The translations under genes and the position numbers were made by a program. Positions 25,044-58,988 of a stretch of DNA of 64,000 bases are shown piece by piece. The DNA comes from Flagellimonas algicola. Its GTDB lineage: Bacteria; Bacteroidota; Bacteroidia; Flavobacteriales; Flavobacteriaceae. Position 1 is the stretch's first letter. Each line of letters starts with the position of its first letter. The stretch is taken from contig NZ_VCNI01000001.1 of assembly GCF_005937185.1 (NCBI RefSeq), forward strand, positions 1,794,657-1,858,656, given 5' to 3'. Under the pieces are notes generated by a model, which saw nothing but the letters and a program-made list of their open reading frames with translations, was not told the origin of the DNA and made no database searches.

Positions 25044-25047
25044 CACC

Positions 25048-25992: not shown

Positions 25993-26014
25993 TGGGCATA
26001 TCGCCAATGCGACA

Positions 26015-30787: not shown

Positions 30788-31159
30788 ATGAAACTTAAAA
30801 AACACATAACGTCTTGTTTGGTTTTGGTTCTGGCAAATTTACTGGCCACTTCTTGTGTGAGCACCCGTATAGAGGCCAGCCCCTATCAAGACACCGTCGA
30901 AAATTTGGAGTGCCAACGAAAATCCAGTTGGAGTTACTGGTGGGGGGTTGCCCCAGGTAGTATCAAAGTTGTCAGTGCCAACCCGGAAATTGAAGGCACT
31001 GTTTGCCCATGTGAAGAAAATGCGATGTCTTGGGCCGTGGTTAAAACCTCTTTTACTGATTTTGCATTAAGTCTGGTGACCTTAGGTATTGTGAACCATA
31101 GAACCGCCATTTATGGCTGCGCTCGACCCCAGGGTGGCGAAGGAGATTTGGACAACTAA
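30788..31159 (+). CDS. Bor-like lipoprotein, island copy
   Basis: A 123-residue protein with a lipoprotein signal (LVLANLLATSC, Cys near residue 23). The mature part has conserved Cys residues and ends VKTSFTDFALSLVTLGIVNHRTAIYGCA, a pattern reminiscent of the phage Bor lipoprotein (F..gfitLGIYtP...yC), so a serum-resistance-like Bor fold is possible. It is clearly paralogous to the protein at 49085-49441 and, like it, lies about 12 bp before an FAD oxidoreductase gene. Confidence 0.75.
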   Translation: MKLKKHITSCLVLVLANLLATSCVSTRIEASPYQDTVENLECQRKSSWSYWWGVAPGSIKVVSANPEIEGTVCPCEENAMSWAVVKTSFTDFALSLVTLGIVNHRTAIYGCARPQGGEGDLDN

Positions 31160-31171
31160 AAAAATATACCC

Positions 31172-32752
31172 ATGCTACCCAAAGGAATAACACGTTTGCC
31201 CATTAAAAAATGGACCAATAAGCATGAAAATTTTACCCATGATTTGGTAGAAAATGCTTCATTCAAGCTACGTAATCCCAGAGAAGGAAAGCGACGGGAA
31301 CGATACCATCAAACAACTAAAAACTTCCAATGGCTCATTCAACATGCCCTGGACAACAATCTCAAACTGCGCGCCATGGGCAGTGGTTGGTCGTTTACAA
31401 AAGTTGGGGTAACCGAAGGAGGACTGATAGACACAGCTTCGTTAAACTTTTCCTTCCCCCTGACTCAAAAATATGTAAGTGATCAATATGCTCTCCAGCC
31501 AGAAGATTTGTATTTTCTACAATGTGGCACCATTGTTTATGAGGTAAATAATCGTCTGAATGCCAAGAACCCTCCACGTTCCATCAAAGCATCAGGAGCA
31601 AGTAATGGTCAAACCATTGCAGGTGCCCTATCCACCGGCACCCATGGGGCGGCCATCAACGTGGGTGCCATTCCTGAATTTGTCGTGGGACTGCATATTG
31701 TTACCGGTCCTGACACTCATATCTGGTTGGAACGCGCTTCTTATCCCGTTACATCACCAGAGTTTGTAGCTTGGTTGGATGCCGATTTGGTTCAAAATGA
31801 TGATTTGTTCAATGCCGCTTTGGTTTCTTTTGGAAGTTTTGGTTTTATCCATGGCGTTATGGTGGAAACCGAACCGCAATTTTTGCTTACGGAACATCGT
31901 GTTGGTAATATTCCTTACGATCATGTCTTGAAAAGTGCAATGACCACCTTGGACTTTAGTGGATTGCAACTTCCTGGAACGGGTCAAAATGGGGAATTAT
32001 ACCATTTTGAGGTACTTTTTAATATCCACAAATTTGAACCCAATGACCCAGATAAAGGAGCCTTCTTAAAGTATATGTTTAAGAAACCTATTGACCCATC
32101 AAATCCACATACCCCATTGTCTCGAAGTAATGAGTTTACGTATGGGGACGACCTTTTGGGAATTATTTCAACTGTATTAGACAAACTTCCGGGCTCAGGG
32201 TTGCTAATCCCGGCGATGGTCAACGCCATGTTCGGTTTGGCATTCGAACCTAAACCTCCGATCCAAGGCACGGTGAAAGAAATTTTTAACTATACCAAAT
32301 TTCGGGGCAAGGTGGCCAGCGCAGCCATTGGCATTGCCATCGAAGACTCCCCAAAGGCCCTGGAAACCATTGTTGAAGTAAATAAGCAAAAACCTTTTCC
32401 CGGCGGACTTTCCTTGCGCTACGTTCATGGTACCAAAGCAACCCTTGGCTTTACCAAATTCCCAAAAACCTGTGTTTTGGAAATGGATGGTGTTGATGGC
32501 GGAAAGGCCCGTGAGTTTTATGAGGCGGTTTGGAATACATTTGAACAAGAGGGGATTGCATACACTTTGCATTGGGGCAAAATCAATTTTAACCTTAACG
32601 AAAATAGGGTGAAGAACATGTATGGGGCCGCTGCGGTACAATCATGGATTGATGCTCGTAACCAATTACTTTCACCTTCCGTTCTGGCAGTATTCAACAA
32701 TAAGTTTATTACGAATTGTGGGCTGCATAAAGTTCTTGGGGCGATTGTATAA
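31172..32752 (+). CDS. FAD-binding oxidoreductase, aldonolactone oxidase type, island copy
   Basis: A 526-residue protein of the vanillyl-alcohol-oxidase/ALO superfamily. The FAD-binding PCMH fold shows RAMGSGWSFTKVG (where the covalent-FAD His of relatives is Trp, suggesting non-covalent FAD) and SGASNGQTIAGALSTGTHGAA. The C-terminus has the HWGK motif (near residue 469) of the gulonolactone/alditol oxidase group. It is about four-fifths identical by eye to 49453-51024. The substrate is unknown; peroxide production by such oxidases could be toxic (inference). Confidence 0.88.
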   Translation: MLPKGITRLPIKKWTNKHENFTHDLVENASFKLRNPREGKRRERYHQTTKNFQWLIQHALDNNLKLRAMGSGWSFTKVGVTEGGLIDTASLNFSFPLTQKYVSDQYALQPEDLYFLQCGTIVYEVNNRLNAKNPPRSIKASGASNGQTIAGALSTGTHGAAINVGAIPEFVVGLHIVTGPDTHIWLERASYPVTSPEFVAWLDADLVQNDDLFNAALVSFGSFGFIHGVMVETEPQFLLTEHRVGNIPYDHVLKSAMTTLDFSGLQLPGTGQNGELYHFEVLFNIHKFEPNDPDKGAFLKYMFKKPIDPSNPHTPLSRSNEFTYGDDLLGIISTVLDKLPGSGLLIPAMVNAMFGLAFEPKPPIQGTVKEIFNYTKFRGKVASAAIGIAIEDSPKALETIVEVNKQKPFPGGLSLRYVHGTKATLGFTKFPKTCVLEMDGVDGGKAREFYEAVWNTFEQEGIAYTLHWGKINFNLNENRVKNMYGAAAVQSWIDARNQLLSPSVLAVFNNKFITNCGLHKVLGAIV

Positions 32753-39845: not shown

Positions 39846-41000
39846 TTATTGAAAATGTTCTTCCAAAACATCCTTCGCCGCTTTTTCTCCAATATTAAAA
39901 AGTTCAAAACGGTTCTCTGCATTGCTCATTTCAATAAGGCTTTCCACATCCTCTTCTGTATAGTTCTTTTCTATGCCCAAAGCTTGCAAATCGGCAACTG
40001 TCAAGGGAAAGTTGTAGCGTAAATATTTGATCAAAGGTCTACCCCCAACATAGTCGCCCTCCATTTTACCGGTTTGTAAATCAATTTCATACGCCGTTGG
40101 GGAGTTGGACAACCACTGCATCAGTATTTGGTTTTGCCAACTAGCATCCTGCATCAACATATCAGGTACACTTTTTGCCCAACTAAGAATCCAATTATCT
40201 TCAATATCATCCGTTTTTTTAGAAAAAACGCTGTAGCCTGTGCCTACGGAGACCACCTCTAATTTATCCTCACCCATTTCCCATTGAAATGGAAATCCTT
40301 TCAATGTGGCCACCATCAACAAGGCCAAAGATGGGTTGTTGGCCATACTCACCCCACCATCCACAAAGGCCGCGGTTTCGCCATTCCCTACTTCAATCAT
40401 TTGGGGGACAAAATAAGTTGGTGCTGCACTACTAGCCCTTACTGCTTGCCATAAGGGAATATCCTTGTTTACCCCAATCTCCGAATTGTAAAATCTTCCT
40501 TTGGGATGGTTCATTATATGCCAAGTACTGTTGGTATCGGCCCGTTTGGCGATAATGCATAAACCGGTTTTTAATTCCGGTCCGCCCATCAATATTGGTG
40601 CGCCAGTGACCTCATTCTTGAAAGTGGCTAAAAGGCTTTTGGCAAGCTCTGAGTAATCGTATTCGGCCTTTAGATATTTGAAAGTCTCCCATGGTTTCCA
40701 CCAGTTATGTTTTTTGCCAAAAATCTTGCCTCCAAGATCCATATAAAGCGTAACAATATCATCCACTTCCATCCCAATGGCCAACCCCGAAGCAATAATG
40801 GAACCAGTTGAAGTTCCCCCTATTAAATCAAAATAATCACACAAGCGCAGAGAATCATCATCATACTTTTTCCGCAGAATAGTTTCCATTTTCTTTAGGT
40901 AGCCTAGGGTCAGGGCACCCCTTATGCCACCACCATCAAGGGACAAAATTCGTTTAGTACCATTGGAAGGGTCTAAATGCTCTGTGAGGGTCTTTTTCAT
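39846..41000 (-). CDS. patatin-like phospholipase
   Basis: A 384-residue patatin. The oxyanion motif is DGGGIRG (22-28), the nucleophile elbow GTSTG (62-66, Ser64) and the catalytic Asp D214 in VDGG. These lipases hydrolyse membrane phospholipids. Patatins serve as effectors in CBASS (CapV) and other immune operons. It sits 2 bp after the DUF4071 gene and is followed by the TSP3 protein; no cyclic-nucleotide synthase is nearby, so activation must come from another operon member. Confidence 0.9.
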   Translation of the reverse strand: MKKTLTEHLDPSNGTKRILSLDGGGIRGALTLGYLKKMETILRKKYDDDSLRLCDYFDLIGGTSTGSIIASGLAIGMEVDDIVTLYMDLGGKIFGKKHNWWKPWETFKYLKAEYDYSELAKSLLATFKNEVTGAPILMGGPELKTGLCIIAKRADTNSTWHIMNHPKGRFYNSEIGVNKDIPLWQAVRASSAAPTYFVPQMIEVGNGETAAFVDGGVSMANNPSLALLMVATLKGFPFQWEMGEDKLEVVSVGTGYSVFSKKTDDIEDNWILSWAKSVPDMLMQDASWQNQILMQWLSNSPTAYEIDLQTGKMEGDYVGGRPLIKYLRYNFPLTVADLQALGIEKNYTEEDVESLIEMSNAENRFELFNIGEKAAKDVLEEHFQ

Positions 41001-42347: not shown

Positions 42348-43061
42348 TTAAAATTTCAAGTTTTTAAGATTTTTGCCCACAGTTTTTAGCTTTGTACCAT
42401 AAGTGTGTTCTGAAAAATTTCTGGTACTAATCGAAGACTTTATCTCTTCGGTATTTAAAATATTTCCAACTGAAATAACTTCTTTTGATTTTTCCTGTGC
42501 AAATTTTAGCTCCGATTGGTGCCAAGCTGTGGGCCTGTCAGAATTTATATTAATGACCAAATCTGCTAAGGAAATGGCGTTTTCTATATAATCTTCAATA
42601 GGTACTCCTGCCTGATAATTTGATCCGGTAGTAACCAACATGCCCAAATCGGTTAATAACGACTCTAAGGCTTTCGCCATTTTGCTATCTATTTTGGAAT
42701 AGGATATATACACCTTCTTCCCTTCCAAATCTGCATTTTCATCCTCTTCCTGAACTGTGGTATAGTTTTCACCCAGAGTTAACCAATGGGTCAATTCAAT
42801 TTTTTCCTCATTCTTTTTTACTATCATAATTTCAATTAAAAATTCGCCCCAACCATGGGATTCCAATCGAAAATTTGTGCCCGGATCTGTAATAATATGA
42901 ATTCGTTGCTTAAATGTTGGGTGCAACAAATATTCAACAGATTCAATTTCAGAAAGTTCATTAGTGCCTGGCTCAATCCAAATAGCCCACTTATAGTAGT
43001 CTTTAATTTTAGGGTTTTTATCTGAGCTTTGACCAATTTTAAATTCTTCTGAATACTTCAT
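42348..43061 (-). CDS. pYEATS-TIR fusion protein
   Basis: A 237-residue protein. N-terminus about 20-105 is a prokaryotic YEATS beta-sandwich (WAIWIEPGTNELSEIESVEY, TDPGTNFRLESHGWGEFLI). C-terminus about 112-225 is a TIR domain (KVYISYSKIDSKMAKALES; TAWHQSEL with candidate catalytic Glu). YEATS domains bind modified lysines or peptides; a sensor-effector link is inferred. The start codon overlaps the upstream TIR gene by four bases. Confidence 0.82.
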   Translation of the reverse strand: MKYSEEFKIGQSSDKNPKIKDYYKWAIWIEPGTNELSEIESVEYLLHPTFKQRIHIITDPGTNFRLESHGWGEFLIEIMIVKKNEEKIELTHWLTLGENYTTVQEEDENADLEGKKVYISYSKIDSKMAKALESLLTDLGMLVTTGSNYQAGVPIEDYIENAISLADLVININSDRPTAWHQSELKFAQEKSKEVISVGNILNTEEIKSSISTRNFSEHTYGTKLKTVGKNLKNLKF

Positions 43062-43726
43062 AATACCTTTATTCTCAAGTTAGAATTTACAGTTTCCGAT
43101 GTCCATACTTGATTATGTGTTTTTATCTGGATTTCCACCAACGCGTCTTCCGTCATTCCATTCATTTCTAAAATTGGACCCGCTGGCATCCTTAATATTG
43201 TTGCCTCCTTCCAAGCACTCCAAGAGCCCTTTCGATAAAACCGATATTGTACCAATTCTTCTCTTCCATAATTTTCCATTACGGTATTGACAATTTCATT
43301 AGGCTCTAATGAAGCCTTAATTCTTCTGCCAAAGCCCTCTTTCCAACCGTATATGTTTTCCGACAATTCAAGTACGGTCTTAACTAAGTTCTTTGGGTCA
43401 TATTCCATGGTCTCATAACCGCTAAATTGAGGTGGATTCAAAACTCCAGTTTCAATAATCGCAACCACAGGCTTGCCTAATGTTTGAGCAACTGAACGTT
43501 CATGTTTAACCCAATCATTGGTTTTTCCCTCTTCTCTTTTGGACAAAAAAACCACAACGGCATCTGAGTCCGCTATAAGTTCCCTGACTTTCGTTTCTAC
43601 AAGCTCACCTTGCAGTCTTTTGCCATCGATTACTTCTAAATCATGACTCTTTATCAGGCGGGTGAAACTTTCTACCACGGGTTCAACCTCATTGTCGAAG
43701 TGGTGCGAAAGAAAAATACTTTCCAT
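43058..43726 (-). CDS. TIR-domain protein, first gene of six-gene operon
   Basis: The ATG at 43726 gives MESIFLSHHFDNE; a start 21 bp upstream is also open. TIR domain about 1-115 with NDWVKHE holding the candidate catalytic Glu. The C-terminal half (about 130-223) is beta-rich (YRFYRKGSWSAWKEATILRM) and may be a ligand-binding sandwich. The stop overlaps the pYEATS-TIR start by four bases. The promoter lies in the 43727-44022 gap, shared divergently with the gasdermin-like gene. Confidence 0.82.
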   Translation of the reverse strand: MESIFLSHHFDNEVEPVVESFTRLIKSHDLEVIDGKRLQGELVETKVRELIADSDAVVVFLSKREEGKTNDWVKHERSVAQTLGKPVVAIIETGVLNPPQFSGYETMEYDPKNLVKTVLELSENIYGWKEGFGRRIKASLEPNEIVNTVMENYGREELVQYRFYRKGSWSAWKEATILRMPAGPILEMNGMTEDALVEIQIKTHNQVWTSETVNSNLRIKVL

Positions 43727-44022
43727 AGTGCTTCTTAAAAATTGCAATTACGAAACCAACACTTGCTATATGCTAGTTACAAATGGGGGAAGATCAAATA
43801 ACTACCAAGTTACGCCAAAGCCTCCTTGGAATAAGTATCAAAGTACATTAATTTTCGTATAATTCCAATATGTTTTTAGTTAAAAACACCTTTTTTATTA
43901 GTAATTTTCTTATTTTAACTGACATAAGTTTCTTCCCCCAATTTTCGTATTAGGATTCCAGTTTTTTTGGGATTTAATTCCTTAAAGACTAAGCATTAAT
44001 TTTTAATCTAAAAATTTAAAAA

Positions 44023-44778
44023 ATGAGTGGTATAGCCAAAAGTTATGAAAAGGTCTTAAGAAAAGAATTAAGAGCACATGGAGCATGGTGGCCTGTAACG
44101 AATATTATCGAAATAGGCAGCTATGGTTTTTTTAGAGGGGGAGTATTTGAACCTGTAGGAAATATTAAAAAGGATTATCCCGATATACCGCTAGATATCA
44201 AAACCAGTCCGGAGTTGAAGAATCTAAATTTTTCTTCTGAAGGAACCAAATCACTTAAATTTAATATCGACGGAGAGTTGGTTGCTTCTTTTGCCGATTT
44301 GGGAGACGCTGATGCTTCTTTAAAATTTGAGTTTAGCAAAAAGAATTCTATTGTTTTAAAGGCGGACGAAATTTCACTCACCCAAATTGAGAATGCAAGA
44401 GAAGTCGCCCTTGCCCTGGCTACAAAATCGGACTGGAAAAAAAAGTATAAAGTTGTTTTTGGCACTTATATTGGCAATCAATGTTTGGTCATATGTGCTA
44501 GAGAAGCGGGTTCAGAATTTATTCTGAATGCCAGCGCAGAAATTCTAGAGCAAATTGATGGAGGCAAGGTGGAAGGTGGTTTTAGCTATACCTCCTCTAA
44601 CAACAGCACCTTTGATGCAATTGGTAAATCCGGGGTAATAGGTATCAAACTTTTCAAATTGAATTGGCTCAGCGGTGAAATCAATGTACTGGCAGCGGAT
44701 CAGGTAACCGAAAACAATATACTTTTTGAAGATAATTTGGGTATCGATTCAGAAGAAGATTTAGAAGACGATTTCTAA
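44023..44778 (+). CDS. gasdermin-like pore-forming protein (candidate), island copy
   Basis: A 251-residue protein without signal peptide or transmembrane helix. The pattern resembles gasdermin N-domains: amphipathic start followed by a proline-rich VGN segment; alternating strands (SLKFEFSKKNSIVLKADEISLTQIENA); then a VVFGTYIGNQCLVICAREAGSE strand pair and a long Gly/Ser strand hairpin, ending in an acidic tail (SEEDLEDDF) that could be an inhibitory peptide. It is homologous to 56664-57449 (MSGIAKSY versus MAGLAKTY start). Six bases after it begins a CHAT protease, the known partner of bacterial gasdermins. The assignment is an inference by eye. Confidence 0.5.
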   Translation: MSGIAKSYEKVLRKELRAHGAWWPVTNIIEIGSYGFFRGGVFEPVGNIKKDYPDIPLDIKTSPELKNLNFSSEGTKSLKFNIDGELVASFADLGDADASLKFEFSKKNSIVLKADEISLTQIENAREVALALATKSDWKKKYKVVFGTYIGNQCLVICAREAGSEFILNASAEILEQIDGGKVEGGFSYTSSNNSTFDAIGKSGVIGIKLFKLNWLSGEINVLAADQVTENNILFEDNLGIDSEEDLEDDF

Positions 44779-44783
44779 AGTCA

Positions 44784-46655
44784 ATGATAACCAAAAAGAT
44801 AGAATACTTCCGCTATGACAAATTAGAAACCGGAATTCTGATAGAAAATAAGCCTTACCTCCTTACAGTGGGGGACAAAAACGCCCTCAGAGAGGTAAGA
44901 ACATCAGAAGATCACAAGGCATTATCAAGAAAGCTTAGGGACACCCTGACTTACAAGAAAGGTGTAATAGAATCTCAAAAGCTTTCAGTCATCAAGGAAA
45001 TAAGTGATTCACTAAAATCATTTTTTATTGATTCGGTTGACATTACAGAAGATATAAATCACCTGGAAGTTTTCTTAAATCCTTCGGAACTGGCATTAAT
45101 TCCTTTTGAATTATTGCTTGATGAAAACGATACTCCAAGATTTATCTCAAAAAGAAATGGTGGACAACTTTTGACTCGGAATGATAGGAACGCAAAAGAC
45201 CTAAATAAGAACATACCGGAAACTCCTAGAGTGCTTTTTGCCTATGTAACTCCCCCCTATAATAAAACTGATGTTTTATTCAAGGAGGTACCATATAAGT
45301 TTCACAAGACAGCAATTAAATCCGCTTTAAAAAATCGAGGAGGAGAGGAAAGATTGAAAGTTTTGGAAAATCCAACTTTTGATCAATTTAAGAGTACTAT
45401 TTTACAGGCAGCTGCCGAAAAAGACCAGTATACCCATATCCATTTGTTGGCTCATGGGCTTTTACGACTGGATAAAGATCATCCTAGTGAGTTCGAATAT
45501 GGAGTAGCATTCAACACGGAAAAAGTGGATCCCAAAAACTATAAATCCACTTCTGCCGAAGAAATTAAATCCATTTTTGAAGGGTTGAGTTCAAAAGACC
45601 TACCCTATCTGGTTAACTATATGATATGCGATGGTGCCAATTTTACAAACGGGGCTCTCCCAGACAGAAACCCGCTACAAGTTACCTTCAATTTGGGTGT
45701 GCCGATTGTGATAGGCTCTCAGTTTCCACTTTCAATGGAGGGCTCCACTATGGTTACAAAGTCTCTTTACAAGCGATTGTTTCGAGGTGATGATATTAGG
45801 CAAATCTTGCTGGATATACGAACAGATTTATACAATAAAAAACCCCATAAGGATAGTCATGATTGGATCAGCCTATTGAGCTATATGAATTTATCATCGG
45901 CATATGAATATGAGCTCTTAAATCATAAAACCAAATGCCAATTAGCTATTCTAAATAATATTAGGGATAGTGCAAATAAAGAAACCATATTTGAGAACAA
46001 TAATGATTTTAAGAGGGTAAAATATCAGATAAGGGAATCAATAAAAGTTTTAAATAAAGAAGTTACTGAGATACAAGAAAAAAAGGTAAAAGAAAAAGAA
46101 TTCTTAGAATATGCAGGCTTGTTAGGAAGTGCTTACAAACGTCTTACCGAAGTTGAGTTGAAAGAGGGAAATATTCTGGATAGTGATACTAGCAACAACC
46201 AACTGGAGTATTTAAACGAGGCAAAAGAATGGTATAAAAAGGCTGCAGAGAAAAACCGTTCCCATCATTGGAGTATTGTTCAGTATCTAAGCTTAAAGAC
46301 CGTTTTAGAGGGGCATTTAAATGAAGATGATTTAGATTTTTGGTATGCAGCACGAGGAGCGGCAAAAAATGAAATCACTCCTAATGCCACATGGCCCTAT
46401 GGAACTTTGATTGAACTTTATGTATTGAACCCTAATACAGTGACCGATTCACACAGGGATGAAATTCTGGAGTTTGCCTTAGAACTTACTAAAAACGCAA
46501 AAAAATTGGGCAAAAAAGAGCATGTAAATTCAACTTATTTACAAATTGAGCGTTATAGTAACTGGTGGAATAACAGTAATTTTAGAATTCCCGAGAATAT
46601 TTTAGCCAATGAACAGGACTTTATCAAAAAAATACTTAGTTTTTTGGTTTACTAG
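44784..46655 (+). CDS. CHAT-domain caspase-like protease
   Basis: A 623-residue protein. The CHAT domain covers about 80-370: catalytic His224 in HIHLLAHG and Cys282 in YMICDGAN, then the GVPIVIGSQFPLS strand and the ARG-rich C-terminal helix. The C-terminus (about 380-623) is helical with TPR-like pairs. CHAT proteases cleave specific targets after activation and can process gasdermins. It starts 6 bp after the gasdermin-like gene, so the two are co-translated. Confidence 0.9.
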   Translation: MITKKIEYFRYDKLETGILIENKPYLLTVGDKNALREVRTSEDHKALSRKLRDTLTYKKGVIESQKLSVIKEISDSLKSFFIDSVDITEDINHLEVFLNPSELALIPFELLLDENDTPRFISKRNGGQLLTRNDRNAKDLNKNIPETPRVLFAYVTPPYNKTDVLFKEVPYKFHKTAIKSALKNRGGEERLKVLENPTFDQFKSTILQAAAEKDQYTHIHLLAHGLLRLDKDHPSEFEYGVAFNTEKVDPKNYKSTSAEEIKSIFEGLSSKDLPYLVNYMICDGANFTNGALPDRNPLQVTFNLGVPIVIGSQFPLSMEGSTMVTKSLYKRLFRGDDIRQILLDIRTDLYNKKPHKDSHDWISLLSYMNLSSAYEYELLNHKTKCQLAILNNIRDSANKETIFENNNDFKRVKYQIRESIKVLNKEVTEIQEKKVKEKEFLEYAGLLGSAYKRLTEVELKEGNILDSDTSNNQLEYLNEAKEWYKKAAEKNRSHHWSIVQYLSLKTVLEGHLNEDDLDFWYAARGAAKNEITPNATWPYGTLIELYVLNPNTVTDSHRDEILEFALELTKNAKKLGKKEHVNSTYLQIERYSNWWNNSNFRIPENILANEQDFIKKILSFLVY

Positions 46656-46726: not shown

Positions 46727-46978
46727 ATGACAAGAGCTACTGTAAAAGCAATAGAAAAAGATTTTAGGAATGCTGGCCCAACAGGTAACAAGCTTCATGT
46801 ATTTCACAGAAGTGGCAGGTGGGTACTTCTCAAAGAAGGAGCTTCAAGAGCATCATCAATTCATGATTCTAAAGCGGCTGCCATTACAAAAGCAAAAGCA
46901 CTATTTGATCTTCATAAATCTGAGGCCTTGGTAATTCACCAACCTGATGGCTCCATAGAAAACTTTATTACTGTTTGA
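46727..46978 (+). CDS. DUF2188 protein, island copy
   Basis: An 83-residue DUF2188 domain (LHVFHRSGRWVLLKEGASRASSIHDSKAAAITKAKAL, ending VIHQPDGSIE). Small nucleic-acid-binding-like fold of unknown role. The final bases overlap the next gene (TTGA). A second DUF2188 protein lies at 48190-48474, outside the island. Confidence 0.8.
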   Translation: MTRATVKAIEKDFRNAGPTGNKLHVFHRSGRWVLLKEGASRASSIHDSKAAAITKAKALFDLHKSEALVIHQPDGSIENFITV

Positions 46979-48189: not shown

Positions 48190-48474
48190 ATGTCCAAAGG
48201 AAAATCTTGGTTACGAATCCTAATCGACCTCATTGAGGTTTTTATCAACAGTAAGGCGAGCAACAAAAGAGGCCGTACGTGGCATCAACATGTGGTGCCC
48301 TTTGAAAAAGGCTGGGCCGTGCGTCGTGAGGGCAACAAACGCGTAACAAGCAAACACAGAAAACAAAGTACGGCGATTCGTAAAGCCAAAAGTCTGGCCA
48401 AAAAATACAAGGCAGATGTTATTATCCATAGAGCAAGTGGAGGTATTCGAGAGCGAATTAGTTATGACGACTAA
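48190..48474 (+). CDS. DUF2188 protein, chromosomal copy
   Basis: A 94-residue protein with a DUF2188 domain from about 32 (WHQHVVPFEKGWAVRREGNKRVTSKHRKQSTAIRKAKSLAKK). The N-terminal 25 residues are hydrophobic-basic. A homologue lies at 46727-46978 within the island. Confidence 0.8.
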   Translation: MSKGKSWLRILIDLIEVFINSKASNKRGRTWHQHVVPFEKGWAVRREGNKRVTSKHRKQSTAIRKAKSLAKKYKADVIIHRASGGIRERISYDD

Positions 48475-49084: not shown

Positions 49085-49441
49085 ATGAATAAAAGCATCC
49101 TTTTTGTATTGATTACCGTGCTTTTCACATCCTCTTGTGTAAGCACGCGTATTGAAGCCAGTCCCTATCAAGATAGTGTTGAAAATTTGGAGTGCCAGCG
49201 CAAATCCAGTTGGATCTATTGGTGGGGCGTAGCCCCCGGAAGTACCAAAATGGTAAGTGCCAATCCGGATATTGCAAATACTGTTTGCCCTTGTGCGGAA
49301 AGGGCCATGTCCTGGACCGTGGTAAAAACCTCATTTACAGATTTTTTACTGAGTCTTGTAACTCTCGGAATTGTAAACCATAGAACCGCCATTTACGGAT
49401 GCGCCAGACCCCAGGGAGGCGAAGGCAATCTAGATCAATAA
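49085..49441 (+). CDS. Bor-like lipoprotein, second copy
   Basis: A 118-residue protein with a lipoprotein signal ending LFTSSC (Cys near 18). Almost identical in the mature part to 30788-31159 (SCVSTRIEASPYQD shared; end PQGGEGNLDQ versus PQGGEGDLDN). It is followed 11 bp later by the FAD oxidoreductase paralogue. Confidence 0.75.
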   Translation: MNKSILFVLITVLFTSSCVSTRIEASPYQDSVENLECQRKSSWIYWWGVAPGSTKMVSANPDIANTVCPCAERAMSWTVVKTSFTDFLLSLVTLGIVNHRTAIYGCARPQGGEGNLDQ

Positions 49442-49452
49442 AAAAACTTGCC

Positions 49453-51024
49453 ATGCTACCAGACGGAATTACCCAGTTACCCATTCAACAGTGGACCAAC
49501 AAGCACGAGAACTTTACGCATAATTTGATACAGAATGCTTCCTTCAAATTAAGAAATCCGGCAGGCCAATCCCATAAAGAACGCTACCGGAAAACCACCC
49601 AAAACTTCCAATGGCTCATACAACATGCTTTAAACAATAACATAAGACTTCGGGCCATGGGAAGTGGGTGGTCTTTTACCAAGGTGGGCGTAACGGAAGG
49701 CGGACTCATTGATACCGCCTCACTTAATTTTTCTTTTCCACTGACCAACAAATATGTGGATGCCAATTACCCCAACCAACCGGAAGACCTTTATTTCATC
49801 CAATGCGGAACCATTATCAATGAAATCAACACCCGATTGGACCGAAAACTTCCGCCGAGATCCATCAAGGCTTCAGGCGCCAGTAATGGACAAACGGTTG
49901 CCGGCGCCCTTTCCACGGGTACCCATGGCGCTGCATTTACCGTTGGAGCCATCCCCGATTTTGTGGTTGGACTTCACGTGGTTACGGGGCCAAACTCGCA
50001 TGTATGGTTAGAACGGGCCTCTTATCCAGTTGCATCCCAAGAATTTGTGGATTGGCTAGATGCCACTTTGGTGCGGGATGATGAACTTTTTGATGCCGCC
50101 TTGGTATCTTTTGGGAGTTTTGGATTTATCCATGGGATAATGATTGAAACTGAACCTCAATTTTTGCTCACAGAGCATAGGGTGGCCCAGGTTCCCTTTG
50201 ACGCAAAATTGAAGAAGGCCATGACCCAACTGGATTTTTCCGACCTCAACTTGGTCGGAACTGGACAAAACGGCGATTTATACCATTTTGAAGTCCTCTT
50301 TAACCTGCACAAATTTGAAGCCAACAATCCTGCAAAAGGAGCCTTTTTAAAATATATGTTCAAAAAACCTGTAGTACCACACCCTCCCCTGTTACGGGAC
50401 AACAATTTCACTTATGGGGATGATCTTTTGGGCCTAATCTCTACTGTTTTGGACAGACTGCCCGGTTCTGGTCTTTTGATTCCCGCTATGGTGAATGCTA
50501 TGTTTGGATTGGCTTTTGAAGCTAAACCTCCAATACAAGGGACGGTAAAGGAAATTTTCAATTACACCAAGTTCCGGGGTAAAGTGGCCAGTGCCGCAAT
50601 GGGAATCGCCATAGAAGATTCTCCAAAGGCGGTAGAACTCATTGTAGAAGTCAACAAGCAAAAACCTTTCCCCGGGGGATTGTCCCTGCGTTATGTAAAG
50701 GGAACCCAAGCTACTTTAGGTTTTACCAAATTCCCAAATACCTGTGTTTTAGAAATGGATGGGGTGGATGGCAACAAGGCCAGGCAGTTCTATGAAGCGG
50801 TGTGGAACAAGTTTGAGCAAGAAGGTCTCCCATACACCCTTCACTGGGGTAAAATCAATTTTAACCTCAACGAAAACCGGGTCAAAAATATGTATGGCCC
50901 TATTCAAGTACAATCCTGGATTGATGCGCGAAATCAGCTCCTTGCACCGCCAGTTATGGAGATTTTCAACAATAAATTCATCGAAGACTGCGGTTTGGAC
51001 AAAGTAAATGGGCCAATCGTATAG
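49453..51024 (+). CDS. FAD-binding oxidoreductase, aldonolactone oxidase type, second copy
   Basis: The start at 49453 (MLPDGITQLPIQQW) matches the start of the paralogue at 31172, whereas the longer frame from 49399 runs into the lipoprotein gene. It gives 523 residues with the same PCMH-FAD motifs (MGSGWSFTKVG, SGASNGQTVAGALSTGTHGAA) and C-terminal HWGK. The two pairs arose by duplication. Substrate unknown. Confidence 0.88.
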   Translation: MLPDGITQLPIQQWTNKHENFTHNLIQNASFKLRNPAGQSHKERYRKTTQNFQWLIQHALNNNIRLRAMGSGWSFTKVGVTEGGLIDTASLNFSFPLTNKYVDANYPNQPEDLYFIQCGTIINEINTRLDRKLPPRSIKASGASNGQTVAGALSTGTHGAAFTVGAIPDFVVGLHVVTGPNSHVWLERASYPVASQEFVDWLDATLVRDDELFDAALVSFGSFGFIHGIMIETEPQFLLTEHRVAQVPFDAKLKKAMTQLDFSDLNLVGTGQNGDLYHFEVLFNLHKFEANNPAKGAFLKYMFKKPVVPHPPLLRDNNFTYGDDLLGLISTVLDRLPGSGLLIPAMVNAMFGLAFEAKPPIQGTVKEIFNYTKFRGKVASAAMGIAIEDSPKAVELIVEVNKQKPFPGGLSLRYVKGTQATLGFTKFPNTCVLEMDGVDGNKARQFYEAVWNKFEQEGLPYTLHWGKINFNLNENRVKNMYGPIQVQSWIDARNQLLAPPVMEIFNNKFIEDCGLDKVNGPIV

Positions 51025-52279: not shown

Positions 52280-53196
52280 AGATTATATTTCTATCTGCGG
52301 GAAATGGGGATTCCATTTTTTTGGAATATACCGATGATGTGGGTGAACTTCATTTTGGTCTTGTTGACTGCAATGATCGTGGCAGGTTTAAACCTACACA
52401 GACCTTTTTAAAACGATATTTTGAATTGAAGGATGACGGGCTACAGGCAAAAACAGGTCAAAAAATTCTGGAAAGAAAAGGCTCCTATATATTTGATTAT
52501 ATTTTTATATCCCACTCCCACGCGGACCACATGGGTGGCCTCAAGGACATTATCCGAAATTATGGGGCAAGACGGCTGTTCTACTTTAAAAACAATAAAT
52601 GGGGTGCCCAAGCCCCCTTTGTACAAGCCATGAAGAATGGTTTTACAACCCATAAGTGGTTTAGGAAAATTGAACATGATCTTCCACTGGCAGCTGGCAC
52701 TAGTCCTGTTTTATTTGAAAGTTCCGAAGGAAGCGTGGAATGTGAGGTAATTTGGCCCTTCGATGGCGAGATAAGCGGAAAGGAAAATAACAACTCCTTG
52801 ATAATCCTCATCAAGCATGGACACTTCAATTTTCTTTTAGGCGGAGATGCGGAACAAAGTGTTTGGAGGGATGACAGGGTTAAAACCAAAATCAACCAGC
52901 TTGAAAAGGTCCATATACTTAAAGTACCCCACCACGGAGCGAAAAATGGTTTTTTAAACACCAAAGGTGATTTTATTGCTCAGGAACTTGCAGCAAAAAC
53001 AGAGTGCGCCATTGTAAGCAGCCATATTTGGAGATATGGCCATCCATCCGAGAAAGTAATAAATCAACTTGATGAACATAGCACTCATGTTTTAAGAACT
53101 GAGGTAAACCAAAATCAGAATATCCAATTTATTTCTAACGGTAAAACATTGGAGGCCCAATATTTCAACAAGGTTCATGGGCAGTTCATCACTTGA
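52267..53196 (+). CDS. metallo-beta-lactamase fold hydrolase (ComEC/Rec2-like)
   Basis: The start MGDLKIIFLSAGNGDS at 52267 is the usual N-terminus of this group. The HxHxDH motif is H83-S-H85-A-D87-H88, with GGDAE and KVPHHGAKNG supplying later ligands. 309 residues. Similar stand-alone MBL enzymes occur in bacterial conflict systems. The 3' end overlaps the convergent amidohydrolase gene by eight bases. Confidence 0.85.
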   Translation: MGDLKIIFLSAGNGDSIFLEYTDDVGELHFGLVDCNDRGRFKPTQTFLKRYFELKDDGLQAKTGQKILERKGSYIFDYIFISHSHADHMGGLKDIIRNYGARRLFYFKNNKWGAQAPFVQAMKNGFTTHKWFRKIEHDLPLAAGTSPVLFESSEGSVECEVIWPFDGEISGKENNNSLIILIKHGHFNFLLGGDAEQSVWRDDRVKTKINQLEKVHILKVPHHGAKNGFLNTKGDFIAQELAAKTECAIVSSHIWRYGHPSEKVINQLDEHSTHVLRTEVNQNQNIQFISNGKTLEAQYFNKVHGQFIT

Positions 53197-55165
53197 AAGA
53201 TCTAGCCAAATAATGCTCTGGGTTTTCTTTGGCAATTAAATCAAAATCCTCATCCCCCAAAAGAGTCTTCAAATCCACAAAGAGGTTTTTATCAGATTTG
53301 TGGTTACGCACTACATAAAAGTCGGTTCCAAAAAGCACTCTGCTACGCAGTTTATTTTTGCCAATTAACGGAGTGCCTCTTTCATGGATATCCCTCTCCA
53401 GAAGGTATTTTTCACAAACCTGAGACAGTTCTTCATTCTTTTCCAAGGTATATTTAATCAACGGATATACTGATTCCTTACTTAAAATATAGCTTAAATC
53501 AGCATAAACGTTGGGATATCTGATCATCAAGCTACTGATGATGGAGTACCAATCCGCATCATTCCATACTTCATTAAGCTTATACCAAGAAAAATCTCCA
53601 TTTGCATTCTCCATAAACTTTATGCCCTCCAATGGGTCTCGCATCAATCTTTGGCTGTATGCTGTCCGGTCCTGCTCCATATATCTTATCCATTCTTCCT
53701 CGCCCCCGTAATGGGCCAAACAAATCTTTAAGTTCTGGAGCAATGAATAGTCAAATTCCTTTTGTTTAGAATCCGGGGCCACCAAAAATGCATCTTGGGC
53801 CCTACTTTTATCATTTTCTTTAACGGCCTCCAAAGTACGTTTGAACAAATCGGGTTCCAGTAAACATAGATAATTGAGCGGATGCGTAAAATTCCATTGA
53901 AAGTCAACATTTTTGGTTTCGGGCAACACCTTTGGATTTTCCCCATCGTAATCCAAAAATGCGGGATGGTAATGCCAATCATTTTTGATGGTTCCCCGGT
54001 AATAAATGGTCCCCATAATGCAATGTGCCATAATAGGAATCTGATTTTCCGCTGCATACCGCCAAATAGGTAGCAGATATTCATCAAAACAATGATAACC
54101 AAGAGCGGGATAAATTTTGAATCCACTAAATCGACAATCTTCCATATAGGTGTGCACAAAACATCCTTCCTTTGGCTTGATTCGCCGTATTTTTTGTCCA
54201 TTTTCATCTTCAAGAGTGTCCCATTCCCAATCAAAAAATTTCTTTCCTTCTTCTTTGATTCTTCTGGGATCTAGGAACAAAAAGGGATGATATCTGTCTT
54301 TTGGGCCATCACCATTTTCATCCTTTACAAAATCCCATAGTTCCAACATTTGATATTTATAGCTATCGTTGAGATCTTGCCCGATAGGTTGACCCTGATA
54401 CTTTTTGGCGATCTCCCTTTGTCTCATAGAGGCAGAGGTTTTACCGGCCTTCATAAATTCCATGTCCATAGGAAGAATAACCATGCCCGAATCTTTGGGA
54501 AGCTGATGCACAGCCCTTTCAGCTATGCCCTTTTGGGTTTTATAGGTGGTGGCAAACCTTCCCAATAGGTAGTAACGCTGCATAAGATCAAGAAAGGAAG
54601 AACTGAACACTTTTTTAATGGCAGGGAAAACTCCCTTTAAAACAAAAAGTATGGGTTTTCTGCTCGATTTTATAATCAATAGCACTGCCACAATCCAGAT
54701 TATTCTATAGAAATCCTCCAAATCAAAATATAAATAGTGCTCTTGCAGCCAATCCTGGATCAGCGTGAAATACTTGTTTGCAAATTCATCCACTTTAAGA
54801 ATCAAGGCCACAAATTCAACCAAATAGATAACTGCTATGGCGCTGATCCAAAAAACAACCAACCGAAAGGGGATACGAACCAAATAATGACCCAAAACCC
54901 AAAATTTTATCCTTAGGAATACTTTTTTTAGAAATTTCCAAAAACGTACTATCCATAACTTGTGGATCTTATCTGAATACCTAATTCCATGCTTGATTTT
55001 AAAAAATAGCTTGACCAAACCAACTACCATGGGGGTATAAATTAGGTAGTATAACGGCCAGGGTACTATGGTCTTGGCCAAAAATGGTGGAACAAAGTTT
55101 CCTGTGAACACATGGGCATGGCAGTTAATGAGCTGTTTTTTTGGCATAACGGGTTTAGTTTTCAA
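53189..55165 (-). CDS. amidohydrolase-like protein with inserted membrane helices
   Basis: A 658-residue protein. It begins with an amidohydrolase first strand (LINCHAHVFTG, H16 and H18), is interrupted by about 200 residues with two or more transmembrane helices (RLVVFWISAIAVIYLVEFVALIL; IIWIVAVLLIIKSS), then resumes the TIM barrel (GMVILPMDMEF, IMAHCIMG, LKICLAHYGG, RVLFGTDFYV). The insertion would anchor the enzyme to the membrane. Last gene of the six-gene operon; its start lies inside the upstream gene (11 bp overlap). Substrate unknown. Confidence 0.75.
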   Translation of the reverse strand: MKTKPVMPKKQLINCHAHVFTGNFVPPFLAKTIVPWPLYYLIYTPMVVGLVKLFFKIKHGIRYSDKIHKLWIVRFWKFLKKVFLRIKFWVLGHYLVRIPFRLVVFWISAIAVIYLVEFVALILKVDEFANKYFTLIQDWLQEHYLYFDLEDFYRIIWIVAVLLIIKSSRKPILFVLKGVFPAIKKVFSSSFLDLMQRYYLLGRFATTYKTQKGIAERAVHQLPKDSGMVILPMDMEFMKAGKTSASMRQREIAKKYQGQPIGQDLNDSYKYQMLELWDFVKDENGDGPKDRYHPFLFLDPRRIKEEGKKFFDWEWDTLEDENGQKIRRIKPKEGCFVHTYMEDCRFSGFKIYPALGYHCFDEYLLPIWRYAAENQIPIMAHCIMGTIYYRGTIKNDWHYHPAFLDYDGENPKVLPETKNVDFQWNFTHPLNYLCLLEPDLFKRTLEAVKENDKSRAQDAFLVAPDSKQKEFDYSLLQNLKICLAHYGGEEEWIRYMEQDRTAYSQRLMRDPLEGIKFMENANGDFSWYKLNEVWNDADWYSIISSLMIRYPNVYADLSYILSKESVYPLIKYTLEKNEELSQVCEKYLLERDIHERGTPLIGKNKLRSRVLFGTDFYVVRNHKSDKNLFVDLKTLLGDEDFDLIAKENPEHYLARSFK

Positions 55166-56636
55166 GGTGCTTTTTCAGAAATTCATATATCTCAACCATA
55201 GCAAGGGTGTCCAACTTGCAATAAGCCAAAAGACTATTTCGGATTTCCTCCAAATCTGATGATTGGTTTCCGGAGGAAACCAGATTGCCCCAGGTATCCA
55301 TGGCCATGGTTCCATCTTGGATTTCCAAGTCACCATAATCCAAGTCCGGGACCAAAACCGGAAGTACTTTTTTAATGGAGGAAGAACCCTTAAACTGATA
55401 GTCTATATAGTCTTTGGCAAAAATTGTTTCCAAATCAAACATATGGTCGTTTATATAGTCCAAATAATCACTGAACTGTGGAAGCCAAAGTTTCATGGCA
55501 TTGTTCCTACCCTTTTCAAAAGAGGCGTGCCAACTGATAAATGTTCCTTCAGTTCCTGTGAATTCCTGCATACCTTCCAGCATCTTCTCTGGCATTTCCA
55601 AGTCATCTGCCAAATGTTCAAAATGCTTTAGATTCCCATTCTCATCCATACTGTGAATGCTAACTTGAAAGGGCATATGTTCGTGGGGGCGTAGTCCGTC
55701 CATTTGGGGAACAGCACTGGCATAGGTTTCATAATCAAAAAAATGGAGGGGAAACACAAGGGCATCCAATTGAGTTTTAATAGTATTCCAATCCACTACG
55801 GGTTTTCCTTGTTGCAAAGAAGTCACTTGGGCTTTTTGAGACTCATTGAGGTTAGCATCTTCCTGGATTTCTGATATCCCAAACTGGTTAGCATTCAAAA
55901 AAGCATTGAGTTTCTTTTCGGTTAACCGTTTTATTTCATGAATAGGATGCTTTGGCAACCAGGCGTTGAAATAATCAAAATTATCGCAGTGGTTGCTTCT
56001 CGTTTTTCGTAAACAGGAACATTTATCTTCCTCAATTTCAGACAGGTTTATGAAATCCAATGCTTCCTGAATTTGCTCAACTATAGTTTCATAGACCGTA
56101 TTAACTTGGGAGGTGACCTCCGATATTTCCAATAGCTGTGAAGCTTGGACTTCTCCCTGTCTCAGGTACTCCTTGTTCAAGTGAATAACGGAAACCTTGT
56201 CCACTTGGAGACCATTTTCTTCCAAAATATACTTCTGGAAAGCGGTGTCAAAAATATGGTTGTGACTTTTTTTGGTACTTACGCCGGTAGAGGATTTCAC
56301 TTCATACAAATGCCAGGCGTTGTTCGGTAAACGTTCTAAAATATCCACCCTAGCAAGTGCTCCTTTCTCCGTGCTGAAGGTGGCTTGAATAAATTGTGAA
56401 TTTGGTTTTTCCAGTGCTTCTCTGGTGTCTTCAAAGCTGCCATCATCAGGCAGTTTAATGGCCTCAGGAAAAAGTTGTTCAGCGTAGGATTCAACCTCGT
56501 ATCCCTCTTCTATTATTTTCCGTAGAAAAAGGGAATATTCGTCCTGTTTTGCTTTTTCGGGTTTGTTTTTGCTTAACCAAAGTGACTCTGGGCAACGCAG
56601 ATAATGAATAAAATCAGTTTTGGTCAGCGTATTCAT
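55155..56636 (-). CDS. DUF2779 protein, PD-(D/E)xK plus exonuclease-like
   Basis: A 493-residue protein. N-terminal part: RCPESLWLSKNKP start, ARVDILERLP and LYEVKSSTGV, the Asp and ExK of a RecB-like nuclease fold. C-terminal part: HFFDYETYASAVPQMDG and later FDLETIFAKDYID, a DEDD/RNase H-like exonuclease. Typical of DUF2779 proteins. It lies 27 bp after the gasdermin-like gene in the same operon. Its role in the system is unknown; it may act on nucleic acid. Confidence 0.85.
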   Translation of the reverse strand: MNTLTKTDFIHYLRCPESLWLSKNKPEKAKQDEYSLFLRKIIEEGYEVESYAEQLFPEAIKLPDDGSFEDTREALEKPNSQFIQATFSTEKGALARVDILERLPNNAWHLYEVKSSTGVSTKKSHNHIFDTAFQKYILEENGLQVDKVSVIHLNKEYLRQGEVQASQLLEISEVTSQVNTVYETIVEQIQEALDFINLSEIEEDKCSCLRKTRSNHCDNFDYFNAWLPKHPIHEIKRLTEKKLNAFLNANQFGISEIQEDANLNESQKAQVTSLQQGKPVVDWNTIKTQLDALVFPLHFFDYETYASAVPQMDGLRPHEHMPFQVSIHSMDENGNLKHFEHLADDLEMPEKMLEGMQEFTGTEGTFISWHASFEKGRNNAMKLWLPQFSDYLDYINDHMFDLETIFAKDYIDYQFKGSSSIKKVLPVLVPDLDYGDLEIQDGTMAMDTWGNLVSSGNQSSDLEEIRNSLLAYCKLDTLAMVEIYEFLKKHLEN

Positions 56637-56663
56637 AGGTTAAAGCATACAATTCCAATTGTT

Positions 56664-57449
56664 TTATGAATCCGAGTTACCAAAATCCAACTCATCCGGA
56701 TAGACCGTAGCCATCTCCCAATCCACATTTCTTGTTTCGGTAAAGCCATGGCCCAGTTTCCAACTTCCTAAAAATCGTTTTCGATATCTCGCCAAGCCAA
56801 CAAAAAGTTCCACATCGTCGTTCCAGTCTTTGATAAATGCGGCATCCTTAAAACTGGACACCGCGAATTTCAAATCCCCTTTAATATCTCCTGCTGCACC
56901 TACCTGCAAGGTTTGGGTTTCACCAGATATGGTCAAGGATCCCTGACTTGAATTGGACTGCATCACCAGCGCTTTTTTTGCTGTTCGGACGGAGACTACA
57001 ATAAAGGATTTATTCCAATCCCCCGTATACTTGTTTCTTATTTTGTTCAAACTGGTTCTGAGCTTGTCCATATCGTCAATTCTGGATTCACTTAGCCCCG
57101 TTGCGGCCAAATAAGTGGAGCCCTCCTTGGTAAAGGATACGTTCAGCTCTCCTTTTCCCACATTGCCGGCATCTGCCGCGGCCTTGAACTCCATGCTTAC
57201 TCCGTTTCTACTCGAAAACCGAACAGCTCCTAACCCATCATCTGTAGCTACGGGTAAATCCAATCCCAAGGTATGAATCAAATTGGTTTCCTTCCTAAAA
57301 CTCCCTATAGGTTGGGGCCTCCCAAGCACATTGGTATGTGAAAAGGTAATAATATCCCCGGGTTCTATTTTAGTGCCCGGTAAATAAACCGGTATCATGT
57401 CCAATTCTTTTATAATCTCTTTTGAATATGTTTTTGCCAATCCCGCCAT
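56664..57449 (-). CDS. gasdermin-like pore-forming protein (candidate), second copy
   Basis: A 261-residue homologue of 44023-44778. The start MAGLAKTYSKEIIKELDMIPV, then LPGTKIEPGDI and PIGSFRK, follows the gasdermin N-terminal pattern; GELNVSFTKEGSTYLAATGLSE, FIVVSVRTAKKALVMQ and the following Gly/Ser hairpins fit its central sheet and pore strands. No signal peptide. The genes before it encode an MBL enzyme (22 bp) and a protease. The family call is an inference from pattern and context. Confidence 0.5.
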   Translation of the reverse strand: MAGLAKTYSKEIIKELDMIPVYLPGTKIEPGDIITFSHTNVLGRPQPIGSFRKETNLIHTLGLDLPVATDDGLGAVRFSSRNGVSMEFKAAADAGNVGKGELNVSFTKEGSTYLAATGLSESRIDDMDKLRTSLNKIRNKYTGDWNKSFIVVSVRTAKKALVMQSNSSQGSLTISGETQTLQVGAAGDIKGDLKFAVSSFKDAAFIKDWNDDVELFVGLARYRKRFLGSWKLGHGFTETRNVDWEMATVYPDELDFGNSDS

Positions 57450-57471
57450 TATCGTTCAATTTATTGTTTAG

Positions 57472-58986
57472 TTATTCGTCTATGATATCCAAATCAAAGT
57501 AGAGGTCATTAAAATCGGTCCGGTCCAAGAACTTTTGCCATTCGGCATCCGAAATATTGGCGTTGTCCGTTTTTTTCACCTCATCCTCATCCGTTTGAAA
57601 AACCCTTCCCTGAGCCTTCTCCAGCAGCGCGCTTTTAATACTGGGCAAAGGATGTCTCCAAGGTGGACTGTTTTTGGTCATGGCCCATTCGTTCACTGCC
57701 GTGATCATTGCCGTAAATTCTTGGGCGTACTTGCCTTGGGCCATCCATCCCAAATTGGGGTAACTATCATTTAGATTGCCCTTAAGTGTGGCATTATGAC
57801 TTGCATGGTGACCGACCTTGTATAGTACGGTACGTCCCAGAATGTCTTTGGCCGTGATGGTATCATCCCCTCGCTTCCATTCATTGTCATCCCAAGAAAT
57901 CCAATTTCCCCTTTGTGCATCGGCAGCAAAGAGTAACACTTTTTTGGATTTCGGTAATTCAAATCCCAGCACCAAACTGGTGTTATTTACGCCCCTATTG
58001 ATTTTTAAGGCCAAATTCTCTGTAGAATACAGCCATTCATCATCAATTCTGCGCCACGACGCATTTGAAGGAACCTCCACTTTGTCGCCATCCTCATCTT
58101 CGTGCTTATCTATGCCATACCATTTTTTAAAAAATCCATGTCCAAATGCACTATTTTTTTCCACTCTATATTCCCTTCGGAAAGGGCAAATTTTATTATC
58201 GCCACTTAAAACCGCGGCATTGAAGGAAAGATGGTGGCCATTTTGGGAGGGAAATGCCTCATCTCCGATAGGGTCTTCGTCCAGCAATAACTTTTCCCTG
58301 CGCGGTGGACCAAGTACATAGGCCCCAAAACCATCCGTTTCTTTCAATTCTACAAAATCGCCAGGGTTGAGATACCTAATACCTTTGTTTTTCTGGGCCT
58401 TATCCTTGACCAGTTTCATAGACTGCTTATTCCTGGATTTGGAGGGGTCTTTTGCCGCTGCACTCAAGGCCTTATGATTGAAAGCTTCTTCTTTATCCCC
58501 TCCAAACTCCATACTCAATAGATTATCAATGGTCTTGAGGGTAGGGTTGTCAGCTTCCAATGAAAGACCCAAAAGCCTCCTTCCTTCCACTAGACCCAAC
58601 AATTGGTCTTTGTGTTTTTTACGAATTTTCTTGGCAAGTCTATCCGTAGGTGATTCTGTCCATGCAAACCAAGCTTCTTTGATATCAAAATCCTTGAAAA
58701 AAGGACTCCTCTTTTTCCAAAAAGCATTCACATGATCTTGATGTTCGTGAGTAACCACTACCAAATCAATGGTTTTATTGGTTGCCGTAGCGATATGGTT
58801 GATGACCTTTTTTACATCCTTATGCGGCAAGAAATTCTGAGATCCCGGTTTGTACCCGCAATCGATTAAAATGTAATAGGGTACATCACTGTCCTTTCTT
58901 GGCATTGCGATCAAGAAACAATCGCCATGACCAATGCGATACATTCGTACCCGAATTCCGTTTTCTGGTGTTTTCATTGTTGCCAT
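57472..58986 (-). CDS. metallo-beta-lactamase fold protein
   Basis: A 504-residue MBL protein. Zinc motif H80-E-H82-Q-D84-H85 (VVVTHEHQDHVNAF), FAADAQRGNW and YKVGHHASHNATLKG near 390 supply the remaining ligands. Longer than the MBL at 52267 because of a large insert (about 110-340). Its start is 2 bp after the protease gene. Possibly a nuclease or phosphodiesterase; the substrate is unknown. Confidence 0.83.
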   Translation of the reverse strand: MATMKTPENGIRVRMYRIGHGDCFLIAMPRKDSDVPYYILIDCGYKPGSQNFLPHKDVKKVINHIATATNKTIDLVVVTHEHQDHVNAFWKKRSPFFKDFDIKEAWFAWTESPTDRLAKKIRKKHKDQLLGLVEGRRLLGLSLEADNPTLKTIDNLLSMEFGGDKEEAFNHKALSAAAKDPSKSRNKQSMKLVKDKAQKNKGIRYLNPGDFVELKETDGFGAYVLGPPRREKLLLDEDPIGDEAFPSQNGHHLSFNAAVLSGDNKICPFRREYRVEKNSAFGHGFFKKWYGIDKHEDEDGDKVEVPSNASWRRIDDEWLYSTENLALKINRGVNNTSLVLGFELPKSKKVLLFAADAQRGNWISWDDNEWKRGDDTITAKDILGRTVLYKVGHHASHNATLKGNLNDSYPNLGWMAQGKYAQEFTAMITAVNEWAMTKNSPPWRHPLPSIKSALLEKAQGRVFQTDEDEVKKTDNANISDAEWQKFLDRTDFNDLYFDLDIIDE

Positions 58987-58988
58987 GA

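Follow-up and report, generated by a model that had tools for sequence, protein, structure and literature searches.

Gasdermins are pore-forming proteins that cause the death of animal cells in pyroptosis. Bacterial gasdermins (bGSDM) adjoin genes encoding caspase-like proteases, including those of the C14 and CHAT kinds, and some have genes for phospholipases or amidases nearby; the known proteins are cleaved after leucine or arginine about 20 residues from the C-terminus, and the majority of them, but not all, carry a palmitoylated N-terminal cysteine (PMC9612521). CHAT proteases also adjoin gasdermins in fungi (PMC10989679), and a fungal TPR-bearing CHAT protease activates the neighboring gasdermin (PMC12881547). 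In type IV Thoeris, a caspase-like protease is activated by the N7-cADPR that a TIR protein makes (PMC12847820), and a structure-clustering study noted gasdermin-like clusters that are unannotated (PMC10584675).

The window studied here, a stretch of 64,000 nucleotides from Flagellimonas algicola, contains two adjacent genes on the forward strand (Table 1) that a first-pass annotation had interpreted as a candidate gasdermin-CHAT pair of a divergent type, and this interpretation is supported by the predicted fold, by profile searches and by the conserved pairing of the genes. We consider it likely, with a probability of about 0.8, that the 251-aa gasdermin-fold protein and the CHAT protease constitute a two-component death module with a CHAT-activated pore-former. 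In such a module, a short acidic C-terminal tail would keep the pore former inactive, an infection signal would activate the CHAT protease via its C-terminal TPR-S region, and the activated protease would remove the tail from the 251-aa protein; the freed gasdermin domain would then build pores in the inner membrane that stop or kill the infected cell, as part of a suicide defense such as abortive infection. The adjoining caspase-like protease probably switches the gasdermin relative on, and the pair is probably a bacterial self-destruct defense that was overlooked by the annotation libraries tried.

Table 1. Features of the gasdermin-CHAT locus and its surroundings (positions are those of the window)
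Feature	Position	Strand	Basis or remark
Gasdermin-fold protein, 251 aa	44023..44778	+	ORF, structure prediction, fold search, profiles
C-terminal tail, residues 225-251	44695..44775	+	acidic, pLDDT <50, conserved DDF end; presumed autoinhibitory, with putative cleavage site
623-aa protein, CHAT protease and TPR-S domains	44784..46655	+	Pfam
CHAT domain, residues 89-363	45048..45872	+	E 6.9e-11; 42.5 bits against a Pfam cut-off of 24
His224 and Cys282, within CHAT domain	45453-45455 and 45627-45629	+	alignment of orthologues
TPR-S (Tetratricopeptide Repeats-Sensor) domain, residues 417-504	46032..46295	+	E 5.9e-8
Divergent TIR-like protein, first gene of opposite operon	43058..43747	-	TIR_2 E 2.9e-4, below Pfam cut-off
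pYEATS-TIR protein	42348..43061	-	pYEATS E 6.3e-22, TIR_2 E 8.5e-7
MAP3K_TRAF_bd / TPR-S protein, 447 aa	41003..42346	-	TPR-S E 2e-23
Patatin-like phospholipase, possible second membrane effector	39846..41000	-	E 3.2e-27
Inverted pair of GGGGGAAGA boxes, candidate shared operator	43781..43943; arms 43781-43793, 43931-43943	.	between divergent units
Second gasdermin-fold protein, 261 aa	56664..57449	-	profile E 5.4e-20; other gene cluster, same island

The locus resembles known bGSDM loci in several respects. The 251-aa protein is short and appears to comprise a pore-forming domain only, with a predicted gasdermin fold and a short C-terminal tail; there is no counterpart of the large mammalian C-terminal domain, as model confidence is <50 after residue 224. 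Next to it lies a gene of one of the two protease kinds, CHAT or C14, in this case CHAT, and patatin and Amidase_2 genes are present in the surrounding island. Unlike bGSDM, however, the protein is not matched by the PADLOC bGSDM model, and unlike most of them it has no cysteine in its first 20 residues, a trait common to all family members (0/18 with such a cysteine). The missing N-terminal cysteine is not a sharp divide, as two bGSDM-model genes from Flavobacteriaceae (L039 and L040) likewise begin without it. Fungal gasdermin/TPR-CHAT two-gene clusters also place a gasdermin beside a CHAT protease with TPR-type repeats (PMC12881547, PMC10989679), but the window pair is bacterial and carries TPR-S instead of ordinary TPR repeats. 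Similarly to type IV Thoeris, which combines a TIR with a caspase-like protease, TIR genes lie beside the caspase-like protease, and in one relative (L030) the genes are consecutive; however, the window locus has a gasdermin, and its TIR genes are encoded on the other strand, outside the operon of the caspase-like effector. The TPR-CHAT protein of Craspase (type III-E CRISPR) is likewise a CHAT protease with TPR-type helices. It differs from the window pair in being the partner of a CRISPR effector and in having a different substrate. A gasdermin beside a CHAT or C14 gene is of a known kind, and what looks new within the literature searched is the variant, which lies outside the PADLOC bGSDM model, has a CHAT protease with TPR-S and keeps company with TIR genes. 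No paper describing the 251-aa family was found in the part of the literature covered, and the family may be among the unannotated gasdermin-like clusters of the structure-clustering study (PMC10584675).

The gasdermin-like strand pattern reported in the first-pass annotation was borne out by structure prediction followed by Foldseek, the check that it had itself proposed. The AlphaFold2 model, for which 11 relatives were used as input, has a mean pLDDT of 75, with only two of the five models being good (75, 74, 49, 47 and 31). All eight Foldseek matches at E ≤ 0.001 are gasdermins (best E 8e-6), and the list down to rank 16 consists of gasdermin, RCD-1 or GSDMB-complex entries; TM-scores normalized by query length are low, at 0.25-0.45 in the eight best matches. 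In sequence searches of the PDB, the 251-aa protein alone gave as its best match the bacterial gasdermin 8sl0, in register and not significant (E 0.44), and when the six nearest sequences were combined into a profile, the matches were two unrelated chains (E 0.02) and no gasdermin. Gasdermin matches arose only after distant relatives joined the profile: with 11 relatives the bacterial gasdermin 7n50 ranked first, in register (E 0.017), and with 15 sequences it was again first and in register (E 0.0012) and the only match below 0.1, which is modest evidence of homology to solved bacterial gasdermins.

The PADLOC bGSDM model PDLC02986, which is a detection model and not a definition of bGSDM, did not match the window protein at E up to 1 or any protein of its genome, and it gave two weak matches among 10 further family members (L021, E 0.0014; L020, E 0.049). 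An hhalign comparison of the family profile with two bGSDM-model sequences was not significant (0.5% probability). With the 251-aa protein alone, PADLOC and NCBIfam searches returned no match, and a Pfam search returned two matches below the cut-off, the better being SSrecog (E 0.092). One might suspect that the fold match is an artifact of a shallow model and that the protein comes from another beta-rich family, as the modest confidence of the model, the low TM-scores and the lack of a gasdermin match for the six-sequence profile would allow; we consider this very improbable, given that the 11- and 15-sequence profiles and the curated bGSDM model favor gasdermins independently of the AlphaFold2 model, and that the Foldseek list is filled by gasdermin-type entries.

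For the protease partner, the intact CHAT domain proposed in the first-pass annotation scores above the Pfam cut-off, and His224 and Cys282, the presumed catalytic dyad, are invariant in 5/5 aligned CHAT orthologues, the window included. It is the sole CHAT match at E ≤ 0.001 in its own genome (4.54 Mb, 14 contigs), and no Peptidase_C14 match was identified in that genome. The ORF coordinates and the order of the pair agree with the first-pass annotation, but the gap between the two ORFs is 5 bases and not the 6 bp that had been given.

The putative autoinhibitory tail of the 251-aa protein is acidic, as had been claimed from the sequence, with a net 11 acidic residues among the last 30, and the same stretch is net acidic in 16/18 family members. 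The residues at its very end (D249, D250 and F251) are invariant in the six closest sequences (6/6). At corresponding positions in the tail, these six sequences also have a hydrophobic residue, Leu239 in the window protein, 12 residues before the end, and Phe in the other five; this residue may mark a site of cleavage or contribute to an inhibitory contact. In the AlphaFold2 model the tail is disordered (pLDDT <50), so inhibitory contacts are not visible there. Within the presumed pore-forming domain, Cys154 and Cys158 are conserved across the six-sequence subclade.

Gene pairs of the same order were identified in four other Flavobacteriaceae records (L006, L009, L010 and L011), in which the two genes are 3 to 5 bases apart or overlap by one base; the pairing is therefore more than chance. 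With the window included, a CHAT-TPR-S orthologue adjoins the gene in five of the six close sequences; the remaining one (L007) has no CHAT neighbor, the nearest CHAT match on its contig being 93 kb off. When one family member was counted per genome or record and the second gasdermin of the F. algicola genome was left out, a CHAT or C14 gene was found within 6 kb in 10/17 genomes or records, as compared with 0.20 expected for positions drawn at random, with the number of CHAT and C14 genes in each genome taken into account; none of a million such simulations reached 10 genomes. The six close sequences in these counts do not represent independent observations. Five of the 11 distant members have such a neighbor, versus 0.15 expected.

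The protease neighborhoods of these distant members are diverse. For instance, L020 has a CHAT protein and a neighboring gene that by eye resembles a STAND NTPase, a C14 caspase is near the gasdermin relative in L021, and L032 combines CHAT with SIR2/EAD11 and a STAND-like gene (by eye). In L037 (5340-14308), from a plasmid of Mesorhizobium sp. AR10, the gasdermin-like gene has a C14-FGE fusion and a CHAT protein in its vicinity, an arrangement similar to that of known bacterial gasdermin loci. In L030 (8206-10392), genes for a gasdermin-like protein, a ThsB-type TIR protein and a C14/CHAT protease are consecutive on one strand and possibly form a TIR-caspase-gasdermin operon.

Seven of the 17 members lack a CHAT or C14 gene within 6 kb (G231, G116, G951, G649, G459, G413 and W02), three of these (G116, G459 and G649) being less than 6 kb from a contig end. 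These members, together with the lack of an early cysteine in 18/18 sequences, would fit an alternative in which the 251-aa protein is a gasdermin by fold without being a protease-activated killer, either acting uncleaved, as the fungal RCD-1 does, or having another membrane role, with CHAT serving other substrates. This alternative appears improbable in view of the conserved tail end, the adjacent protease in 5/6 close sequences and the other kinds of protease near 5/11 distant ones.

Upstream of the pair, an operon on the opposite strand encodes a TIR-like and a pYEATS-TIR protein, a 447-aa protein that has the TPR-S domain in common with the CHAT protein, and a patatin-like phospholipase. 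The divergent layout is repeated in L010 and L011 (by eye), where a TIR-like gene with a TIR_2 match is in the same place. TIR_2 matches were identified within 6 kb in 7/17 genomes or records, versus 0.22 expected, six of them being the close clade (6/6). In the intergenic region of the window, the two GGGGGAAGA boxes are 137 bases apart, and both boxes never co-occurred in 200,000 base shuffles, the motif having been picked after being seen; the boxes are partly present in L010 and L009 and are not clear in L011, L006 and L007.

Two readings of this arrangement can be considered, both retaining the gasdermin-CHAT module. It is only a little short of evenly probable that there are two independent modules, in which gasdermin-CHAT senses its trigger directly via TPR-S, with the TIR/patatin operon constituting a defense system of its own. 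Defense islands are well known to gather unrelated systems, and in four of the five distant members with a protease neighbor (L020, L021, L032 and L037) the gasdermin is accompanied by a protease and by further partners, among them STAND-like, SIR2 and FGE proteins, and has no TIR_2 match at a distance of up to 6 kb; the retention of the divergent layout and the TPR-S domain common to both units speak against such independence. More tentatively, a TIR-triggered, inflammasome-like cascade may be envisaged, which would extend the gasdermin-CHAT module rather than oppose it, in that a nucleotide signal of the TIR operon would be read by the TPR-S region of the CHAT protein, making one TIR-protease-gasdermin pathway. 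The TIR_2 enrichment, the common TPR-S domain, the row of genes in L030, the inverted boxes between the divergent units and the type IV Thoeris precedent (PMC12847820) are consistent with this cascade; however, the window TIR genes may be a separate module given their strand, the four distant members named above have a protease and no nearby TIR_2, and the boxes are not clear in three of the close relatives. We regard as rather unlikely the full proposition of an inflammasome-like pathway leading from a TIR nucleotide messenger through the TPR-S sensor on CHAT to a gasdermin pore, in a lineage missed by the libraries tried that spans at least three phyla and has several protease and sensor partners. 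If the CHAT-activated pore-former is right, bacterial gasdermins are more numerous and diverse than curated models indicate, and the pair would offer a small testable system for asking whether TIR signaling can drive bacterial gasdermin pores and whether the N-terminal lipid anchor is dispensable.

Matches to the 251-aa protein were identified in four of 249 Flavobacteriaceae genomes searched, the own genome included, and a scan of GTDB contigs gave five loci, in Arenibacter, a Croceivirga MAG, a Flavobacteriaceae MAG, Pareuzebyella and Muriicola, the last two being genomes already found among the 249. The family profile matched 5/395 genomes of the phylum, the own genome included, and the PADLOC bGSDM model matched 2/345 genomes of a phylum sample, the own genome not among them, a comparison that is rough only, as model and sample differ. 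When distant members were added to the profile, 8/395 genomes of the class were matched, again including the own genome; the one in G555 was partial (L028, 55 residues, E 4.6e-4) and did not resemble the family by eye, and neither the alignments nor the counts over 17 genomes include it. Relatives are known from Bacteroidota, Mesorhizobium and Gemmatirosa. Those of the latter two genera are on plasmids: one, annotated as 'hypothetical protein', is from Mesorhizobium sp. AR10 (E 2e-6) and the other from Gemmatirosa kalamazoonensis (E 5e-4). The 15-sequence profile, built without either of them, confirmed both (E 6e-40 and 3e-41, respectively). Searches of IMG/VR and of phage records revealed no relative of the 251-aa protein, a fragment of 7n50 had no match among plasmids, and a bGSDM-model gene searched as DNA against plasmids gave a single short chance match. 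As G229, the only same-genus genome listed, has no match to the 251-aa protein, the data suggest that the gasdermin-CHAT locus is accessory.

The second gasdermin-fold protein, to which structure prediction was applied as it was to the 251-aa protein, is 12 kb from the pair and has no CHAT or C14 gene within 6 kb; when it was used alone against PDB sequences, no gasdermin was among the matches. Together with a DUF2779 protein (55155-56636), it is flanked by MBL-fold and amidohydrolase-like genes on the reverse strand (53189-61016), and the MBL cassette around it also includes an HExxH protein without a Pfam match (58989-61016), relatives of which were found five times in 158 other genomes of the bacterial family. 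The row of HExxH, MBL and amidohydrolase-like genes occurs without a gasdermin in three Flavobacteriaceae records (L048-L050, by eye), and its first two genes occur in L047. The second gasdermin gives the impression of an effector that has entered a conserved cassette. The HExxH/MBL cassette was considered as a possible activator of this gasdermin, but in the four of the five relatives that were read (L047-L050) the MBL gene follows and no gasdermin-like gene was seen by eye, so no activator role is claimed.

Elsewhere in the island, a DUF4062 protein, an AAA ATPase and a 1525-aa protein are encoded in a row on the forward strand (23778-30556); in an antiphage system, DUF4062 is reported to be an NADase that resembles TIR (PMC13174449). 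Downstream of the pair there are two DUF2188 genes on the forward strand (46727-46978 and 48190-48474), which correspond to the PADLOC candidate PDC-S16. A pair of genes for a small and a large protein is present twice in the window on the forward strand (30788-32752 and 49085-51024), with an FAD-binding domain in the scanned copy (49399-51024); a similar pair opens L011 and part of one opens L010, and the duplicated pair is possibly a boundary repeat of the island.
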